A stretch of DNA of 64,000 bases from a virus, in IMG/VR virus record IMGVR_UViG_3300022752_000022, positions 1 to 64,000 of that record, one strand, 5' to 3'. Shown one piece after another: positions 35,770 through 45,133 of this stretch (position 1 is its first letter; each line of letters opens with the position of its first letter). The translations under genes were made by a program, and so were the position numbers. The notes beneath the pieces were generated by a model. The model saw only the letters and a program-made list of their open reading frames with translations, was not told where the DNA came from and did not search any database.

Positions 35770-37478
35770 TAAATTTCAAAAAACTTAGATGGAAAAACTT
35801 CATATCAACTGGTAATTATTTCACTGAGTTGAATCTATGCGGTAATTCTACGACACTCATCATAGGCGCAAATGGATCAGGCAAATCTACTATGCTTGAT
35901 GCTTTGTGCTTTGGTTTATTTGGTAAGCCGTTTCGTAACATCAACAAACCTCAATTGCTAAACAGCATCAATCAAAAAGATTGTGTTGTAGAAATTGAGT
36001 TCACGCTAGGATCTAAAGATTATAAAGTCATTCGCGGGTTGAAGCCGGGGATCTTTGAAGTCTATTGCAATGACGAACTAGTTACACAAAATGCGTCTGC
36101 AAAAGATTATCAAGACCATCTAGAGAAAAATATTCTCAAACTTAATCATAAGTCTTTCACGCAGATTGTTGTTTTGGGTAGTGCATCATTTACACCATTC
36201 ATGCAGCTATCAGCAGCAGATAGAAGACAAATCATTGAAGACTTACTGGACATTCAAATCTTTTCAAAGATGAACGTTGTTCTAAAAAACAAACAACAAA
36301 CTTTGAAAGATGAATTGATTCAACTCAAGAGCGACATTGCAATCCATACAGAGCGTATGCAAAGCATTGTTGCATTGATACAAACATTAGAACGTAATAA
36401 TGCTGATAAGATTAAAACGATTGAAAGTCACATAGCAAACACTACAAATGAAATCTTTGAGTGTAAAATTAATCATCAAAATCTTTCTGATGAAAATGTA
36501 ATGTTGGCCGAACAGATTGTTGACTTATCATCGTCACAAAAGAAATTGTCAAAGCAAGAAACAATCAAAGTCAATCTATCAAAGACAAGTGATAAAATTT
36601 GTAACGATATTGCATTCTATCATGACACTGAAACATGCCCAACATGTAAACAGACAATCACGGAGTCTTTCAAACAAAAAGTTATATCAGATAAAAAATC
36701 TAAGCATGAAGAAGTGAACACTGCAATTAAAACACTTGAAGAAGAATCAGTAGCATTGAAACACAAAATTCATTTGTATGAAGGCATAGCAAATGCAATT
36801 GCAAATAATAATGTTGCCATCTCTAAATGGCAAATAAAAGCATTTGCAGCGAAGAGCGTACTAGATTCTTTGAATCGTGATTTAGACTCTGCAAAAAATT
36901 CTAAAGCAGATTTGAATGAACAGAAAGAAAAATTGAATATAGTCAAAAATGAATTGATTGATTTTGACGAAAAACAAAAACAATTCAACGAACAAAAAGC
37001 GTACTACGATGCTGCAACTTCATTGCTCAAAGATGGTGGTATCAAAACACGCATCGTTAAACAGTATATACCAATCATTAATAAATTAGTTAACAAGAAT
37101 CTTCAAGCAATGGACTTTTTTGTTAACTTCACACTTGATGAATCTTTTAAAGAAACCATCAAGTCTCGCCATCGTGATGATTTTAGTTATGCATCATTTA
37201 GTGAAGGCGAAAAACAACGTATAGATATGGCATTGATGTTGACATGGAGAGCAGTTGCGAAGTTGAAGAATTCTGCAAATACCAATCTGCTGATTCTTGA
37301 TGAAATATTTGATTCATCATTAGATGCAAACGGCACTGAAGACTTGATGAAAATTCTCGCAATGCTTGATGACAGTAATTTATTTGTGATCAGTCATAAA
37401 GGTGATGCTCTTCAAGATAGATTTGATAACGTAATTAAATTTGAAAAGGTAAATAATTTTTCAAGGATTGCAAAATGA
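35766..37478 (+). CDS. gp46: Recombination exonuclease subunit gp46 (Rad50-like)
   Basis: SMC/Rad50-type ATPase partner of gp47. Walker A GANGSGKST at residues 34-42, Q-loop region, central coiled coil with a zinc-hook CPTC at 291-294, ABC signature FSEGEKQRIDMAL near 475, and Walker B LLILDEIFD near 507. 570 residues (T4 560). Overlaps the deformylase gene by 4 bp. Confidence 0.95.
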   Translation: MINFKKLRWKNFISTGNYFTELNLCGNSTTLIIGANGSGKSTMLDALCFGLFGKPFRNINKPQLLNSINQKDCVVEIEFTLGSKDYKVIRGLKPGIFEVYCNDELVTQNASAKDYQDHLEKNILKLNHKSFTQIVVLGSASFTPFMQLSAADRRQIIEDLLDIQIFSKMNVVLKNKQQTLKDELIQLKSDIAIHTERMQSIVALIQTLERNNADKIKTIESHIANTTNEIFECKINHQNLSDENVMLAEQIVDLSSSQKKLSKQETIKVNLSKTSDKICNDIAFYHDTETCPTCKQTITESFKQKVISDKKSKHEEVNTAIKTLEEESVALKHKIHLYEGIANAIANNNVAISKWQIKAFAAKSVLDSLNRDLDSAKNSKADLNEQKEKLNIVKNELIDFDEKQKQFNEQKAYYDAATSLLKDGGIKTRIVKQYIPIINKLVNKNLQAMDFFVNFTLDESFKETIKSRHRDDFSYASFSEGEKQRIDMALMLTWRAVAKLKNSANTNLLILDEIFDSSLDANGTEDLMKILAMLDDSNLFVISHKGDALQDRFDNVIKFEKVNNFSRIAK

Positions 37479-37993
37479 AATACACTTTGATAAAAGAAAC
37501 TGCACCGATATTGAGAGTGCCGTGTGTTGAATTTGATTTTTCTGATCCGCCATGTGATCCGATTGAACTTGCAAATGATCTAAATGAAACAATGATTGCT
37601 AACGATGGTTTAGGTCTTTCTGCTAATCAAGTGGGATTAGAATATCGTGTTTTTGTTGTTCGAACGGAAGAAAACAAACCCCTCGCTTTGTTCAATCCAG
37701 AAATAGTTTCTGTATCTGATAAATTAATTTCTTTAAAAGAGGGCTGTCTTAGTTTTCCGTTATTATATTTAAATGTCAAACGCCCTGAGTGGGTTAGAGT
37801 TCGATATAAAGATCAGTATAGTGAAATTCATACTAAAAGATATATGGGTGTAACATGCCGAGTTGTTCTTCATGAATATGATCATATGGAAGGAAAAGTA
37901 TTTACTCACGCAGCATCAAAATTTGAGTCACAAAGGGCCCTAAGAAAAAGAATGATCTTGAGAAGACGAGTCAACGGACAAAAAGATGATTAA
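37475..37993 (+). CDS. def: Peptide deformylase
   Basis: Removes the N-formyl group from nascent proteins. The three PDF motifs are intact: GLGLSANQ (45-52), EGCLSFP (89-95) with the Cys ligand, and HEYDH (133-137) with both His ligands and catalytic Glu134. 172 residues, with an Arg/Lys-rich C-terminus. Phage deformylases are known from aquatic myoviruses and are thought to support processing of short-lived or photosystem proteins. Here no photosynthesis gene is visible, so the benefit is unclear. Confidence 0.92.
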   Translation: MKYTLIKETAPILRVPCVEFDFSDPPCDPIELANDLNETMIANDGLGLSANQVGLEYRVFVVRTEENKPLALFNPEIVSVSDKLISLKEGCLSFPLLYLNVKRPEWVRVRYKDQYSEIHTKRYMGVTCRVVLHEYDHMEGKVFTHAASKFESQRALRKRMILRRRVNGQKDD

Positions 37994-38646: not shown

Positions 38647-38998
38647 AGTGAAATCAGTAGAAGAATCTACTCAGTATGAGAGTTTACTCGGTGTGAAAGA
38701 GAGTGCGACAACAAGTCTTGATCTAACTGAAATGATGGACTTGACTGAAGAAGAAAAGAAACTGGTTGAAATTGACGAAGAAGCAGAGTGGAAGAAACAT
38801 TGGCAAGGTATGCCAGAATTCAAACAAGAAGACAATCCTACATACAAAACAATCTACGTTCATTTTAGAAACAAAGAAGACTACGAAGATTTTGCGAAAC
38901 TGATTGACCAAAATCTCAGTGACAAAACTAAATCAATCTGGCATCCTAAACTTGATAGAACAGAGAATGCATTATTGCGATGGATCGTTGAAGAATGA
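38627..38998 (+). CDS. WQGMPEF-domain protein associated with phage DNA modification
   Basis: 123 residues. The C-terminal half HWQGMPEFKQEDNPTYKTIY then VHFRNKEDYEDFAKLIDQNL and TKSIWHPK is a domain I know as the C-terminus of phage ParB-like/DNA-modification proteins. The N-terminal half is a charged linker. On its own it has no catalytic motif. It precedes a methyltransferase-like gene and a TET-associated-type glycosyltransferase, so a role in base hypermodification is plausible but inferred. Confidence 0.65.
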   Translation: MVKKKAEVKSVEESTQYESLLGVKESATTSLDLTEMMDLTEEEKKLVEIDEEAEWKKHWQGMPEFKQEDNPTYKTIYVHFRNKEDYEDFAKLIDQNLSDKTKSIWHPKLDRTENALLRWIVEE

Positions 38999-39756
38999 AT
39001 TTCATAACAGCAAAGAAACAAGACCTCTTTAATCATTTCATTACAGATTATAAAACATTATTTGATGTTGATGAAAATCTTGCGAAGACATTTCTAAAAA
39101 ATGGTGAACTATTCAAGCGATTGACTGAAGAATGGTATCATCAATTAGAAAATGGTACACTTCAAGATGCATATCGTGTCTATGATGATGAATATTATTT
39201 TGTTGACATCTTCAATTGTTATGCAACTTATAGCAGAGATTATATCAAACGGATTATAAAATCTCCGACAGCACTTGCTTTACTCAAGGATTCCAAATCG
39301 TTCGTTGACATTGGATGCGGAATCAGTTATAGTACATGTGCATTGAAGCAAGTATTTCCAAACGCAAAAGCATATGCTATCAATTTGAGAAATACAAAGC
39401 AATGGAAATTCTGTGATATGATGAGCAAGACTCATCATTTCCATTTGATTGAATCAGTTGATGAAGTTGCAGGTGAAGTTGATTTTGTTTTTGCTTCCGA
39501 ATACTTTGAACACATTGAGAATCCAACTAGACATTTTCAAGAGATTGTAGATAAGATTCAGCCTAAATATTTTATCATTGCAAATGCATTCAACACATGG
39601 TCGATTGGCCATTATAAAACTTATGTGTATGATCATACGACGGTTGATCAAAGTAAGATTAGTAAATTATTCAATAGATACATAAGATTGAATGGTTATG
39701 AAAAAGTGAATTGTAACTTATGGAATAATAAGCCTACGATATGGAAGAAAGTATGA
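38995..39756 (+). CDS. Class I SAM-methyltransferase-like protein
   Basis: 253 residues. A Rossmann motif I is visible (SFVDIGCGISYSTCALKQVF, residues ~102-121), followed by acidic strand ends and VDFVFASEYFEHIENPTRHF (motif IV-like). A helical N-terminal domain of ~95 residues precedes it. There is no DPPY or PCQ motif, so it is not a standard DNA amino- or C5-methyltransferase. It may methylate a modified base, a sugar or a small molecule. Overlaps the glycosyltransferase by ATGA. Confidence 0.72.
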   Translation: MNFITAKKQDLFNHFITDYKTLFDVDENLAKTFLKNGELFKRLTEEWYHQLENGTLQDAYRVYDDEYYFVDIFNCYATYSRDYIKRIIKSPTALALLKDSKSFVDIGCGISYSTCALKQVFPNAKAYAINLRNTKQWKFCDMMSKTHHFHLIESVDEVAGEVDFVFASEYFEHIENPTRHFQEIVDKIQPKYFIIANAFNTWSIGHYKTYVYDHTTVDQSKISKLFNRYIRLNGYEKVNCNLWNNKPTIWKKV

Positions 39757-40670
39757 CGATTAATCCTGATCATCCTGTATACATCGTATCTAAAGGTAGA
39801 TCGGATACGATGATTACATCAAAGTCACTTTCACGCATGAAAGTGCCGCATTACATTGTGATTGAACCACAAGATCATAAGAGTTATGATACAGCATTAG
39901 ATACATTTAACATCCGTGATTATGTAACACTCTTAGTTGCACCATTTTCAAATCATGGTGATGGTCCCGGTCGTGCAAGAAACTATGCATGGGATCATGC
40001 GATTTCAATTGGTGCTGAAAAGCACTGGGTGCTTGATGATAATATTGCAGACTTTTATCGTCTGAATGAGAACAAAAGAATCCGAGTTGAATCTGGTGTT
40101 ATATTTTATGCAGCGGAACAGTTCATTGATCGCTTTGAGAATGTTCCGATTTCTGGATTTCAATATCGCTTTTTCATTGCACCCAATCAAAAGTATCCAC
40201 CGTATGTGAAGAATACCCGAATCTATTCTACATTGCTTATTTCAAATGATTGTAAACATCGGTGGCGTGGTCGGTACAATGAAGATACAGATATTTGTTT
40301 GCGTGTCCTGAAAGATGGTGATTGCACTATTCAATTCAACGCTTTTCTTCAAGGTAAAGCAGCAACACAAACAGTCAAGGGCGGTAACACCGCAGAATTT
40401 TATCATGCTGAAGGTGATCTAGATAAAAGCAAATGGCGAGATGGTAGACTGAATGCTCAGGGCACCATCAAGAAATCCCAAATGCTTGCTGACTTGCATC
40501 CTGATGTTGCGAGAGTTGTCTGGAGATATGGCCGCTGGCATCATTATGTTGACTATGGTCCATTCAAGAAAAACCAGCTGATTCTCAAGAACGGTGTGCA
40601 GATTGAAAAGGGTGTAAACAATTTCGGAATGAGACTGATTACGAATTATAAATCGCCTGATGTTGTGTAA
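39753..40670 (+). CDS. TET-associated-type (GREB1-like) glycosyltransferase
   Basis: 305 residues from ATG 39753, which overlaps the previous stop as ATGA (an in-frame ATG at 39741 is possible). The GT-A core shows YIVSKGRSDTMITSKSLSRM, FSNHGDGPGRARNYAWDHA and KHWVLDDNIADFYRLNEN (acidic DDN at ~95-97), then RGRYNEDTDICLRVLKDGD. This is the pattern of the phage glycosyltransferases that occur with TET/JBP dioxygenases and sugar-decorate oxidised pyrimidines in DNA. No TET/JBP gene is in the window. The substrate is therefore inferred. Confidence 0.75.
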   Translation: MTINPDHPVYIVSKGRSDTMITSKSLSRMKVPHYIVIEPQDHKSYDTALDTFNIRDYVTLLVAPFSNHGDGPGRARNYAWDHAISIGAEKHWVLDDNIADFYRLNENKRIRVESGVIFYAAEQFIDRFENVPISGFQYRFFIAPNQKYPPYVKNTRIYSTLLISNDCKHRWRGRYNEDTDICLRVLKDGDCTIQFNAFLQGKAATQTVKGGNTAEFYHAEGDLDKSKWRDGRLNAQGTIKKSQMLADLHPDVARVVWRYGRWHHYVDYGPFKKNQLILKNGVQIEKGVNNFGMRLITNYKSPDVV

Positions 40671-40681
40671 AAACAACAGTC

Positions 40682-40710
40682 TTGACTTTCTTGTCCAACC
40701 CATGTAAACT
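40682..40710 (+). promoter_or_regulatory. Sigma70-like promoter before the VWA gene
   Basis: TTGACT (40682-40687), 17-bp spacer, TAAACT (40705-40710), 23 bp upstream of ATG 40734, with GAGAGGGAACA as ribosome site. It begins the compositionally distinct 40.7-44.3 kb cassette. Confidence 0.65.
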
Positions 40711-40733
40711 ACATAGGTAACTGAGAGGGAACA

Positions 40734-42917
40734 ATGACTAACCTAGAAACAACAAAATCCACGCTAGCCAGACTGCTAGCAACAGAGAATCTCAATATTG
40801 AGATCCGAAAAGCGGAAACAGCAGCATTCAATCCCAATACTCGGACGTTGATTCTTCCACTCTGGAAAGATATCTCTCCAGAACTCTATGATCTTCTGGT
40901 CGGCCACGAAGTCGGCCATGCATTAGATACACCCGCTGAAGGTTGGCATGATGCTATTGTAGAGAACATGAAGCCTGGATTCAAGTCTTTCCTGAATGTG
41001 GTAGAGGATGCTCGGATTGAACGGAAAATCAAAACACGTTACCCAGGGCTCCGCAAGTCCTTTGTGATTGGTTACCGTGAACTATGCGATAAAAATTTCT
41101 TTGGCTTAGACGGCAAGGATGTGAATGATTCTCTGCTAATTGACCGTATCAATGTACACTTCAAATTAGGCGTATCAGCCAACGTACAATTCAAACCAGA
41201 AGAGCAATACTTTCTGGATAAAATTGAAGCAACAGAAACCTTTGAAGATGTATACCAAGTGGCTAAAGAGTTGTACGAATATTGCAAAGAGGAAATGCAA
41301 GACCTTCAGCAACAGCCACAACCTGAGGCTGGATCGCCTGATGAAACTGGTGAAGATTCTGGCGATTCTTCTGGCGAAGGTGAGTCTTCAGGAACATCTG
41401 AACAGTCTGGTGAAAAACAAGAAATGCAAGGCGATGCTACCGACAGTAGTGACGGTGATGGAGAAGAGGAGGGCGAAGAGTCATCCGATACTGATTCTAG
41501 TTACGGTAAAGATTCTAGCAAGTCAGGCGATGCCGACAATTTTGATCCAGTGTCCGAGACTGATACAGCATTTCAAGAAGCTATGAAAAGCCTCAGTCAA
41601 ACCACTGGCGAATTGGTAACGGGTCATCTCCATCATCCAAACAATTTTGATTACGATAACATTGTTGTTCACTGGAAGAATTGCGTCGGCAAATTGGTAG
41701 AGGCTGAATACCAATTCAGCCCTAGTCTTCTAAAGGAATTTGAAGCCAAAAACAAGAATGCTCTTATGTATCTTGTTAAAGAGTTTGAAATGCGAAAGAG
41801 AGCATCCGAACTTCGCCGTGTGTCGGTTGCACAAACTGGTCAACTTGATACCAATAAGTTGCATACTTATAAATTTAATGACGATATCTTCCGTCGTGTT
41901 GCAAGTGTTTCACAAGGCAAGAATCACGGGCTATACATTGTGATTGACTGGTCTGGTTCAATGGGCGACAATCTTAAAGGTACGATTGAGCAATTGATTA
42001 CCCTTACTCAATTCTGTAAGAAAATCAACGTGCCCTTTGAAGTGATGGCCTTTGCTACTGAGTATCACATAAAAAATGAATTCGGTGGAAGAATTTCAGG
42101 AGTTCCACTTAAGCAAGGCGTTGATGTAAAAAATCACTTGCAAATTGGCTCATTCAATCTTTTGAACCTGCTTTCATCAACTATGCCTGATAAAGTTTAT
42201 CGGCAAATGTGTAATGATTTATTGAACGCAGGTGCAATGCGTGGTAGGTACTTGAAGAGTAATTTTCGTTTGGGTGGCACTCCGCTCAATGAAACAGTCA
42301 TGGTTCTTCCTAAACTTGTAAATGATTTTAAAATGAAGAATCGGTTGCAAATTGTGAATGTAGCCATTCTAACGGACGGCGAAGATTCCGATCACATTCC
42401 GGTGAATGGTACATTCGGTTTTTCTAGTGGAATTCAATCCAGCACAAACAATAGAACTTGTATCATTATTGATAACGAAACCAAGAAGAGTTACAAAACC
42501 GAGAGTCGCCGTGGTGCTGTTACCATTGCACTGCTAAAAATTCTCAAGGATAAAACTGGCTGTAATCTCCTTGGCTTTTACATTACGCAACCATGGCGCA
42601 GTGCTTACGCTGATGTTATGCAAAAATTTACTAATGATACTAAGTATAGCAGATACAAATCTCCTGAAACTGCAAGAGAATCCTATGCTAAGTGGAAAGA
42701 AACGAAGGTTGATGTTATTACCGATTGGGGCTTTGATGAATACTACATCATTCCTGGTGGTAATGAGTTGAATGTGGATGATGATGATTTGGACGATATC
42801 ATTGGTCAAGGTGTGAATGTTACGGCTCGCAAATTGCGTGGCGCATTCCTGAAGATGAATCAGAACCGACTGACGAACCGTGTGTTGCTCCGAAAATTCA
42901 TTGAGAAGGTGTCGTAA
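40734..42917 (+). CDS. CobT-like VWA protein with HExxH metalloprotease-like N-terminus
   Basis: 727 residues. The N-terminal domain carries HEVGH (His58, Glu59, His62) in VGHEVGHALDT, as in gluzincin-like metallopeptidases. A Ser/Glu/Asp-rich acidic linker lies at ~190-270. The C-terminal VWA domain has an intact MIDAS DWSGS (Asp405, Ser407, Ser409) and LTDGEDSD further on. VWA proteins of this type act with MoxR/CobS AAA+ ATPases, and that gene follows directly. The pair resembles cobaltochelatase CobT/CobS but with a protease-like head, so a chaperone or protein-remodelling role is more likely than cobalamin synthesis. Confidence 0.82.
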   Translation: MTNLETTKSTLARLLATENLNIEIRKAETAAFNPNTRTLILPLWKDISPELYDLLVGHEVGHALDTPAEGWHDAIVENMKPGFKSFLNVVEDARIERKIKTRYPGLRKSFVIGYRELCDKNFFGLDGKDVNDSLLIDRINVHFKLGVSANVQFKPEEQYFLDKIEATETFEDVYQVAKELYEYCKEEMQDLQQQPQPEAGSPDETGEDSGDSSGEGESSGTSEQSGEKQEMQGDATDSSDGDGEEEGEESSDTDSSYGKDSSKSGDADNFDPVSETDTAFQEAMKSLSQTTGELVTGHLHHPNNFDYDNIVVHWKNCVGKLVEAEYQFSPSLLKEFEAKNKNALMYLVKEFEMRKRASELRRVSVAQTGQLDTNKLHTYKFNDDIFRRVASVSQGKNHGLYIVIDWSGSMGDNLKGTIEQLITLTQFCKKINVPFEVMAFATEYHIKNEFGGRISGVPLKQGVDVKNHLQIGSFNLLNLLSSTMPDKVYRQMCNDLLNAGAMRGRYLKSNFRLGGTPLNETVMVLPKLVNDFKMKNRLQIVNVAILTDGEDSDHIPVNGTFGFSSGIQSSTNNRTCIIIDNETKKSYKTESRRGAVTIALLKILKDKTGCNLLGFYITQPWRSAYADVMQKFTNDTKYSRYKSPETARESYAKWKETKVDVITDWGFDEYYIIPGGNELNVDDDDLDDIIGQGVNVTARKLRGAFLKMNQNRLTNRVLLRKFIEKVS

Positions 42918-42925
42918 AAATGCAA

Positions 42926-42959
42926 CAACACCATGTTGCAAAAAAACAACATGGTGTTG
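42926..42959 (+). terminator. Perfect 13-bp inverted repeat overlapping the next promoter
   Basis: CAACACCATGTTG (42926-42938) and CAACATGGTGTTG (42947-42959) are perfectly complementary around an A-rich 8-base loop. The right arm ends inside the -35 box of the following promoter. Either a terminator without T-run or a protein-binding site. Confidence 0.7.
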
Positions 42960-42985
42960 ACATTTCAGCAAAACCTCTGTATGAT
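42957..42985 (+). promoter_or_regulatory. Near-consensus sigma70 promoter before the MoxR/CobS gene
   Basis: TTGACA (42957-42962), 17-bp spacer, TATGAT (42980-42985): one base off the full sigma70 consensus. The -35 box shares bases with the 13-bp inverted repeat, so a protein bound there would block the polymerase. Confidence 0.85.
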
Positions 42986-43016
42986 TACATTATGAACTTT
43001 GATAAGGAACTTTGAA

Positions 43017-44210
43017 ATGACTAGCCGTGCAGATAAAATTGAATATCTCACCACAATTCTTAACCGCTTTGGCACTACGGTAACAATGGAGCAATTGAAG
43101 CAGTTGGACTCCGAGGGTATCAAGCGCCAGGTGTGGGTCTCTGGCGAAAAGTATCGTATTGGCCGTGGTCTGTACCAGCTCCCTCTGGCCGAGTACGGCA
43201 TCAATATGGCGGGTACTGTTATGCCCATGCGAAAGCCTGAGCCGGTAGCAGCGGCTCCAGTGGTTCCAGTTGCACCTGCAATTCCACAAGAGAAAGCAGC
43301 AACCAAAATCTCCAAGGTTCTCCGAATCGATGATGGTCCGACGGTGCCTAAGACTGATCCATTGTACGTACCATTCGGTTTCTACGATAAAATGCTTAAG
43401 ATTGTGACTTCAAAGCAATTTTATCCGGTGTTCGTTTCTGGACTGTCTGGCAATGGTAAGACAATGATGGTTGAGCAAGCCTGTGCTAAACTTGGTCGAG
43501 AATTCATGCGAGTCAATATCACGCCGGAAACGGATGAGGATGACTTGATTGGTGGGTTCCGCTTGATTGACGGTGAAACCCGCTGGTTCGACGGGCCTGT
43601 GCTCCAGGCCATGAAGTCCGGTGCAATTCTCTGCCTCGATGAAATTGACCGTGGCTCAAACAAACTTATGTGCTTGCAAGGCATTCTTGAGGGCAAGCCA
43701 ATCTTCGTAAAGAAGACTGGTGAAACCGTGTCACCTGGACCTGGATTCAACGTGATAGCAACCGCTAACACAAAAGGTAAAGGCGATGAAACTGGTCGAT
43801 TCATGGCTGCGACAATCCTTGATGATGCATTCCTGGAGCGGTTTCCAATCACGGTTGAGCAAGAGTATCCAGACACCAAAGTTGAGACTAAAATTTTAGC
43901 TCGTGTGTTTGATAGTCTTGGTCTCCAAGATAAAGAGTTCTCGGAGATCCTGGTAAAGTGGGCTGATATCATCCGCAAGACATTTGAAGAGGGTGCGATT
44001 GATGAATTGATTTCCACTCGCCGTCTGGTGTCTATTGCGAAAGCATACCAGATTTTCGAGAACCGTGAGGATGCGATTCAGTATTGTATCAACCGCTTTG
44101 ATGCTGAAACCAAAACAGCATTCATGGATCTCTACAGCAAGTTGGTTCCTTCTGAGCCTGTTGCGTCTTCAGCACCAGAAGCATCAGCCGATGAAGACAT
44201 ACCTTTCTAA
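43017..44210 (+). CDS. MoxR/CobS-type AAA+ ATPase
   Basis: 397 residues from ATG 43017 behind AAGGAACTTTGA (the frame also has a TTG at 42999). Walker A GLSGNGKT at 142-149, Walker B AILCLDEID near 203, sensor region GFNVIATANTKGKGDETGRF and Arg finger in FLERFPITVEQ. A winged-helix-like N-terminal domain (~1-60) and a Pro/Ala linker precede the ATPase. CobS homologs are frequent in aquatic T4-like phages, and here it is paired with a CobT-like VWA protein. GC is clearly higher than in surrounding genes. Confidence 0.88.
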   Translation: MTSRADKIEYLTTILNRFGTTVTMEQLKQLDSEGIKRQVWVSGEKYRIGRGLYQLPLAEYGINMAGTVMPMRKPEPVAAAPVVPVAPAIPQEKAATKISKVLRIDDGPTVPKTDPLYVPFGFYDKMLKIVTSKQFYPVFVSGLSGNGKTMMVEQACAKLGREFMRVNITPETDEDDLIGGFRLIDGETRWFDGPVLQAMKSGAILCLDEIDRGSNKLMCLQGILEGKPIFVKKTGETVSPGPGFNVIATANTKGKGDETGRFMAATILDDAFLERFPITVEQEYPDTKVETKILARVFDSLGLQDKEFSEILVKWADIIRKTFEEGAIDELISTRRLVSIAKAYQIFENREDAIQYCINRFDAETKTAFMDLYSKLVPSEPVASSAPEASADEDIPF

Positions 44211-44228
44211 GAAGAAAATATTCTACGA

Positions 44229-44255
44229 AGTGGTCGAGAAATCGGCCACTTTTTT
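44229..44255 (+). terminator. Rho-independent terminator with GAAA tetraloop
   Basis: AGTGGTCGA (44229-44237) and TCGGCCACT (44242-44250) pair with one G-T wobble around a GAAA loop and are followed by TTTTT. It ends the VWA/MoxR cassette. Confidence 0.9.
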
Positions 44256-44296: not shown

Positions 44297-45133
44297 ATGG
44301 AAATAAGAATTGACATTGAAAAAATCAGGGAGAAAAAGGTGTTCATTGCGACACCAATGTACGGCGGCCAGTGTTATGGTGGTTATACAAAATCTATTGC
44401 AGACTTTATGGTCCTCTGTACTCGATATAAGATTGAATGCAAATTATTTTTTATGTTCAATGAATCACTCATTACAAGAGCACGAAATTACTTGGCCGAC
44501 GAATTCATGCGCTCGGACTATACTCATTTGCTTTTCATTGATAGTGATATAACTTTTAACGCACAAGACATTCTTGTGATGTTACATTACTCCGAAGATG
44601 AAGATAAAGATGTTATCTGTGGGCCTTATCCTAAGAAAGCAATCTCATGGGAAAAAGTAAAGGCTGCGGTTGATAAAGGCTTTGCTGATAAAGATCCACT
44701 TGCACTTGAAAATTTCACCGGCGACTACGTGTTTAATCCTGTAGACGGTACAGAAAGAATTGCACTAGGTGAACCCGCTGAAGTGAAAGAAGGCGGTACT
44801 GGATTTATGTTAGTGAGAAGAAATGTTTTTGAGAGAATGAGCGAATTATATCCTGAAAGATCGTACAAACCTGATCATGTACGAACAAAAGCATTTGATG
44901 GTAGCCGTGAAATTATGGCTTACTTTGATTGTGTAATTGATCCTGATTCAAAGCGATATCTATCTGAAGACTACATGTTTTGTCAGTATGCAAGAAAAGC
45001 TGGTCTTAAAGTTTGGATGTTGCCGTGGCTAGAATTAAAACACACAGGTTCTTACACTTGGGGTGGCTCTCTATCTGCACTTGCGGCAGTTGGTGCATCT
45101 CCAACAGCATCAAGGACCGCACCGAAACGATGA
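44297..45133 (+). CDS. GT-A-type glycosyltransferase
   Basis: 278 residues. The N-terminal KKVFIATPMYGGQCYGGYTK, LITRARNYLADEFMRSDYTH and LLFIDSDITF with the metal-binding DSD (82-84) show a GT-A fold. The later GFMLVRRNVFERM and EDYMFCQYARKAGLKVWMLP are the acceptor side. Similar genes are widespread in T4-like aquatic phages. It may glycosylate DNA, a virion protein or a host surface glycan. It starts a new transcription unit after the terminator and overlaps the next gene by 4 bp. Confidence 0.82.
   Translation: MEIRIDIEKIREKKVFIATPMYGGQCYGGYTKSIADFMVLCTRYKIECKLFFMFNESLITRARNYLADEFMRSDYTHLLFIDSDITFNAQDILVMLHYSEDEDKDVICGPYPKKAISWEKVKAAVDKGFADKDPLALENFTGDYVFNPVDGTERIALGEPAEVKEGGTGFMLVRRNVFERMSELYPERSYKPDHVRTKAFDGSREIMAYFDCVIDPDSKRYLSEDYMFCQYARKAGLKVWMLPWLELKHTGSYTWGGSLSALAAVGASPTASRTAPKR

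Follow-up and report, generated by a model that had tools for sequence, protein, structure and literature searches.

A MoxR-type ATPase and a zincin-like VWA protein filed as "cobS" and "peptidase" in a T4-like virus may form an early remodeller of DNA-bound proteins

Introduction

What does the gene annotated as cobS do in T4-like phages? It has been placed among the core genes of marine T4-like cyanophages (PMC3037559), and a review suggests that phage cobS boosts cobalamin, presenting it as an enzyme that acts in the last step of its synthesis (PMC2984593). Here, we have addressed this question at a locus of IMG/VR virus record IMGVR_UViG_3300022752_000022 in which the cobS-like gene (C) follows a gene for a metallopeptidase-like protein (V). 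The DNA analysed, called the window below, is the first 64 kb of this 149,598-bp record of an aquatic T4-like virus, which is itself a fragment. PHROGs assigns V to phrog_459 "peptidase" and C to phrog_249 "cobS"/"porphyrin biosynthesis" (Table 1).

The interpretation that we put forward, and to which we give somewhat less than an even chance, is that V and C are an early remodeller or protease of DNA-bound proteins. The architecture of the pair and its core status are well supported, and we infer what its target could be from the evidence given below.

Results

Domain architecture of V and C

The residues of the zinc site of V (H58-E59-H62, N88, E91-D92) and of the MIDAS in its VWA domain are invariant among 32 sequences that share 36-62% identity with the V of the window, and E91 is the probable third zinc ligand as judged from sequence. 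The AlphaFold model of full-length V has a mean confidence score (pLDDT) of 74. The top structural matches of its VWA domain are NorD of NorQD complexes (Z-scores of 15.3 and 15.0) and the MIDAS of Midasin/Rea1 (Z 14.3-14.6), with the remaining VWAs at about 12 and lower. When the N-terminal domain was modelled separately (pLDDT 84), its structural matches were modest (Z 4.6-6.8 among the first 19), and they are nearly all HExxH zinc proteases, including ZMPSTE24, ArdC, BlaR1, minigluzincins, IrrE/PprI and SPRTN, with Wss1 ranking lower. Taken together, these matches make a good though not conclusive case for a zincin. Pfam scans of V and of its N-terminal domain alone returned no significant match, and searching the V profile against solved structures by sequence gave only a chance match to an acidic stretch.

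C is a MoxR-type AAA+ ATPase with a CbbQ/NorQ-type C-terminal domain, both Pfam matches lying above cut-off. Its start codon is preferably the ATG at 43017 rather than the TTG at 42999. The first 80 residues (43017-43260) appear to form a small, sequence-variable N-terminal domain with a recurring G-R-G-x-Y-x-L-P end, followed by a low-complexity linker; a structure search with these residues gave no meaningful match. An earlier, sequence-only reading of the window had recognised in V and C a MoxR/VWA remodelling pair, and the domains of C, the invariant MIDAS of the adjacent VWA protein and its NorD/Midasin-like fold all agree with that view.

Core status, synteny and composition

In the window, the gene order is uvsW-47-46-V-C-45-44-43-uvsX, which places V and C inside the replication/recombination block between gp46 and gp45. 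Among phage records, 463 relatives of V were found, mostly in Synechococcus and Prochlorococcus phages, and the counts of V and C are equal in three cyanophage groups (365 Synechococcus, 61 "Cyanophage" and 24 Prochlorococcus). Among IMG/VR loci, with overlapping loci counted separately, C lies downstream of V within the fetched stretch, 59-114 bp away, for 118 of the 133 V open reading frames (ORFs) that are complete at the 3' end. All 11 long records holding either gene also hold its partner, including two in which V and C are about 10-17 kb apart. The surroundings seen in the window recur, apart from local insertions, in Syn33, S-CREM1, HTVC008M and Mosig; in Syn33, V and C have between them a small protein with a DNA-binding annotation. 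Among T4-like phages of marine and fresh waters, V and C thus have a well-supported place as core genes with conserved synteny.

The T4-like cyanophages and pelagiphages thus have both families, in the same order and at the same gp46-gp45 position as the window, and differ from it in two respects: the clade of the window lacks psbA, and its C carries a Pro-Phe tip. Since psbA was absent from all nine records tested, the members of this clade probably infect heterotrophs. PAAV01000055.1 (161 kb), filed under a Chloroflexi metagenome-assembled genome, also has the two genes; it is probably a contig of a T4-like phage that was binned with a bacterium.

These observations speak against the proposal, made in the sequence-only reading, that the pair is a transferred autonomous cassette. 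In the relatives examined, both genes belong to the core and keep their synteny, being neither patchy nor displaced, and the core-gene check which that reading had itself set came out against transfer. The block is indeed GC-richer, as had been noticed: the GC content is 0.417 for V and 0.478 for C against a gene mean of 0.366 (standard deviation 0.042), and the GC content at third codon positions (GC3) is 0.48 for C against a mean of 0.27 (standard deviation 0.064). Other genes of the window are GC-rich as well, namely the major capsid gene (0.434) and the gene at 575-1309 (0.486). In pelagiphage HTVC008M, however, the GC3 values of V (0.19) and C (0.22) are like those of gp45 (0.22) and gp44 (0.25), and the GC3 of the pair also matches the flanking replication genes in Syn33. 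The raised GC3 of C is real, yet it does not extend to the pair in general. Recent transfer of V and C was rejected on both grounds.

Promoters and expression timing

Single matches to the sigma-70 consensus are weak evidence: 82 sites were found in the region where 68 were expected, so that the 9/12 site upstream of V is not significant alone. We therefore judged promoters by their conservation across loci. A site of at least 9/12 is found upstream of V in 29 of 31 divergent, non-redundant loci, nearly always with a 17-bp spacer, and the best site scores 10.1 on average compared with 7.2 in shuffles. This conservation makes the promoter of V credible. Of the 57 distinct gaps between V and C, 32 contain a site of at least 10/12; in several of the remaining loci, V itself has a strong promoter upstream. 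None of the 31 regions upstream of V contains TATAAATA, the core of the T4 late promoter. This core is enriched in the window, where it occurs 14 times when 6.1 are expected (a count that no shuffle out of 100 reached), and it sits upstream of head genes. Because host-type promoters are conserved and TATAAATA is absent upstream of V, the pair appears to be expressed in the early or middle phase, as replication genes would be, and the early expression proposed before is thereby upheld.

The inverted repeat that separates V from C borders directly on the -35 box of the C promoter and may act as a regulatory hairpin; at the matching position, a terminator is annotated in S-CRM01.

The C-terminal tip of C

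C ends, after a variable linker, in acidic residues followed by a hydrophobic residue and Pro-Phe (DEDIPF), a pattern met in the tail of single-stranded DNA-binding protein (SSB). In E. coli, SSB terminates with MDFDDDIPF, an acidic tip that binds numerous proteins of genome maintenance (PMC7913777), and the plasmid SSBs in the recombination modules described below end in DMDIPF and DDPIPF. Among relatives of C clustered at 95%, 20 of 40 end in Pro-Phe and 25 in Phe; at 85% clustering the figures are 8 and 13 of 22. None of 424 other ORF tails from the same loci ends in Pro-Phe and six end in Phe, and the tip of C is the sole match to [DE]-[ILVM]-P-F-stop in the whole record. The tip is thus a conserved short motif in part of the family and, to judge by its resemblance to SSB, may have an SSB-like role.

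Two other explanations of the tip were rejected. Gp32 is not a carrier of it, as the gp32 of the window phage and of relatives with a readable gp32 end in acidic FEKLAED-like tails. Nor does it look like a sliding-clamp-binding tail, as the phage's own gp43 ends in ASLESFFA. In a literature search of incomplete coverage, no earlier paper joining MoxR/VWA with an SSB-like tail was found. In one related locus (L148), C (1808-2968) is a mosaic, the C-terminal half being nearly identical to that of another locus (L129) and the AAA+ core far more diverged, which suggests recombination within cobS.

Relatives on plasmids and in other phages

Searches with the V profile also recover VWA proteins from conjugative plasmids and from pR997, an element of the R391 type, with E-values down to 7.8e-14 compared with 0.12 at best in local-shuffle controls. 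The low-complexity linker gives part of this score, and the HExxH..NxxED.R..YPG segment alone reaches about 3e-6. When scanned with Pfam, these plasmid proteins match CobT/CobT_C/VWA. Their genes travel with genes for a MoxR AAA+ protein and DUF3150, and are adjoined by ssb, bet/recT and a lambda-type exonuclease in Vibrio, Proteus, Azospirillum and Citrobacter, by ssb and exonuclease in Alcaligenes, and by exonuclease in Methylobacter. MoxR/VWA genes of this kind were reported in a study of plasmid pCAR1 to be conserved in SXT and R391, with no function assigned (PMC2642839). Three unrelated phage groups likewise have a CobT/CobS-like pair near DNA polymerase, ligase, helicase or SSB genes; the zinc motif is HEVAH in the Rhizobium phage and HECYH in the Vibrio phage, and the Pseudomonas phage protein has none.

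In the plasmid modules (L169, L170, L171, L195, L197 and L198), the DUF3150 protein, and often a small protein encoded after the AAA+ gene, end in aromatic residues and a terminal Phe (for example GAYF, NSFYF, DFWF, KAAFF, ADYWF), the DUF3150 proteins of Alcaligenes and Shewanella being exceptions. These tails are possibly a shared C-terminal docking peptide.

Tests of the cobalamin label

Against the CobS equivalog TIGR01650, C scores 76.8 bits where the cut-off is 558.55, about 480 bits short. No CobN (PF02514) was found in any of the 11 phage records searched, although these could be incomplete and the host might provide the protein. V has no Pfam match to CobT, and no CobT_C match was found in the record. 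A survey of Chloroflexota with PF06213 for a reference CobT gave one match, which bears HESAH and adjoins an AAA+ gene. Homology of C and V to the aerobic cobaltochelatase CobS/CobT is distant and runs through the plasmid relatives; the pair differs in the low score of C, in the lack of CobN and, it appears, in the zinc site kept by V. On these grounds, membership of V and C in the cobaltochelatases was rejected. The label fails because C is far below the CobS cut-off and CobN was not found, in line with the earlier remark that the pair is not necessarily cobalamin-related. The review's account of phage cobS may reflect two different genes that share the name.

Features of the locus

The two genes, the HEVGH and MIDAS motifs, both promoters and the terminator were all located where the sequence-only reading had placed them (Table 1). 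V and C are free of overlaps, as it had said, with intergenic gaps of 63, 99 and 86 bp around them. Its picture of tightly overlapped surrounding genes is right only in part, since gaps of hundreds of bases are common among the neighbours.

Table 1. Positions of the features of V and C in the window.
Feature	Position	Strand	Evidence
Sigma-70-type promoter upstream of V, TTGACT-17-TAAACT, 9/12 consensus	40682..40710	+	Promoter kept here in 29/31 diverse loci
V: zincin-like metallopeptidase domain, acidic linker and VWA domain, CobT-like, 727 aa	40734..42917	+	phrog_459, E 3.7e-190; structure models
HEVGH zinc-binding/catalytic motif, V residues 58-62	40905..40919	+	H58, E59, H62 invariant in 32 sequences
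NVVEDAR, V residues 88-94, E91 probable third zinc ligand	40995..41015	+	N88, E91, D92, R94 invariant; motif also in plasmid VWA proteins
Acidic low-complexity linker of V, about residues 195-270	41316..41543	+	Sequence; pLDDT < 50
V MIDAS DWSGS, residues 405-409, with T516 and D548	41946..41960	+	Invariant
Inverted repeat between V and C, 14-bp stem	42926..42959		Scored as terminator on minus strand only
Sigma-70-type promoter of C, TTGACA-17-TATGAT, 11/12	42957..42985	+	32/57 V-C gaps of relatives hold a site of at least 10/12
C: MoxR/CobS-like AAA+ ATPase, 397 aa	43017..44210	+	Pfam AAA_5 6.2e-22, CbbQ_C 1e-5; phrog_249, E 4.7e-111
Walker A GLSGNGKT, C residues 142-149	43440..43463	+	Sequence motif
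SSB-tail-like C-terminal tip DEDIPF of C	44190..44207	+	Conserved tip after variable linker; PF ending seen in 0/424 other ORF tails
Intrinsic terminator downstream of C	44227..44252	+	11-bp stem, T-rich tail

The pair is flanked by possible DNA modification genes: a methyltransferase-like ORF without a PHROG match (38995-39756), a match to phrog_842, beta-glucosyl-HMC alpha-glucosyltransferase (39741-40670), and phrog_1574 with weak glycosyltransferase similarity (44297-45133). A peptide deformylase gene (phrog_2890, E 4.2e-40) lies immediately after gp46 at 37475-37993. A perfect 12/12 sigma-70 consensus, TTGACA-17-TATAAT, stands on the minus strand at 33956-33928, opposing the main gene direction.

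Discussion

How might V and C act together? We propose that they form one machine, in which C would be a MoxR-class AAA+ ring and V a VWA partner that carries a zinc-protease domain beyond its acidic linker. If the pair works as NorQD and Midasin do, the VWA domain of V would dock on the ring with its MIDAS holding the target, and ATP hydrolysis by C would twist or pull this target and present it to the zincin. NorQD structures offer a model: a finger of the VWA domain reaches into the AAA+ pore, and the linker is twisted and stretched as ATP is hydrolysed, which serves the insertion of iron (PMC13036017). The linker between the VWA and zincin domains of V could be strained in a similar way so that the held target is pulled apart or cut. 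NorQD and Midasin/Rea1 share the AAA+ and VWA/MIDAS parts with the pair and have the closest solved VWA folds; they differ in that the NorD compared has no HExxH or zincin domain and in that their targets are different.

Zincins that act with AAA+ proteins on DNA-bound proteins are exemplified by SPRTN and Wss1, the DNA-protein-crosslink proteases. With these we draw an analogy of function only: the fold similarity is weak (Z 4.6 and 3.6), their AAA+ is of another class, they have no VWA, and homology is not claimed. V and C would be made early and are encoded within the replication/recombination block. Their likeliest targets would be host or phage DNA-bound proteins at sites of replication or recombination. 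The module of conjugative plasmids and R391/SXT-type elements is like the pair in its homologous VWA protein with HExxH..NxxED.R, its MoxR partner and its recombination context, and differs in having DUF3150 and additional hypothetical proteins and an AAA+ protein without the Pro-Phe tip. In the clade of the window, the SSB-like tip of C might recruit, or compete for, SSB-interacting proteins.

Some observations weigh against this interpretation. The C proteins of cyanophages and pelagiphages lack the Pro-Phe tip, having mostly acidic-hydrophobic tails instead (EEDETI, EEETPSV, DDDSAI, DEKTTF), so the tip is not essential to the whole family. The tip is also missing from the plasmid AAA+ proteins. 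Moreover, because we took the examples from plasmids and other phages out of hit lists, they are illustrations and no estimate of frequency, and gene neighbourhood is indirect evidence. A more far-reaching proposal, that the widespread marine phage "cobS" and "peptidase" are an early replication-associated AAA+/metalloprotease clearing or cleaving proteins on phage or host DNA, and that in one large clade the SSB-tail copy of C hijacks host SSB-interacting repair and replication enzymes, is in our view unlikely.

The same machine could instead be a host-takeover or anti-defence protease aimed at host regulators or defence proteins rather than replication nucleoproteins. The early-type promoters would suit such a role, as would the presence of relatives on conjugative elements, and in its model the N-terminal domain of V is similar to several zincins, among them BlaR1 (Z 6.0) and the antirestriction protein ArdC (Z 6.1). 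Counter-defence genes, however, are usually patchy, while V and C are core and syntenic in almost all relatives, and PADLOC gave no credible match (best E-values 0.007 and 0.096). We regard this alternative as unlikely, although more probable than those that follow.

A pair of a MoxR AAA+ protein and a metallopeptidase-vWA protein is already known from group 2.2 jumbo phages, where it was proposed to act in virion assembly with proteolysis (Iyer et al. 2021, PMC7824862). Its architecture agrees with that of V and C by the published description, and V and C could by that precedent be a virion assembly chaperone-protease. This role disagrees with their early-type promoters, with TATAAATA being missing upstream of V when it marks head genes, with their place inside the replication block, and with homologues on plasmids, which make no virions. 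Because of the promoters, the location and the plasmid relatives, we prefer a DNA-linked role, and consider one in virion assembly improbable.

A NorQD-like chaperone that inserts a metal or cofactor into a phage or host metalloenzyme is suggested by the closest solved VWA match, whose linker is twisted for that purpose (PMC13036017), and by 2OG-Fe oxygenase genes nearby in several related phages. The invariant zincin site of V, absent from the NorD compared, argues against it, and no conserved metalloenzyme partner was seen adjoining the pair across relatives, which makes this role quite improbable. That V and C are cobaltochelatase subunits boosting B12 in infection, as the annotation, the suggested cobalamin boost (PMC2984593) and the core status of cobS (PMC3037559) would have it, is very improbable given the score of C, the missing CobN, a V protein without a CobT match but with its zincin site kept, and relatives that reside in recombination modules.

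For V and C as an early remodeller or protease, we infer from these comparisons that the two proteins would form a complex, that V would cleave its targets, that these would be bound to DNA, and that the tip of C would contribute where it is present. For more than 15 years, the cobS gene has been listed among the auxiliary metabolic genes for vitamin B12. If it is shown to be half of an early MoxR/zincin-VWA machine, its annotation would be corrected, including the inferences on viral B12 metabolism drawn from metagenomes. It would also, if true, link one kind of machine across phages and antibiotic-resistance plasmids.

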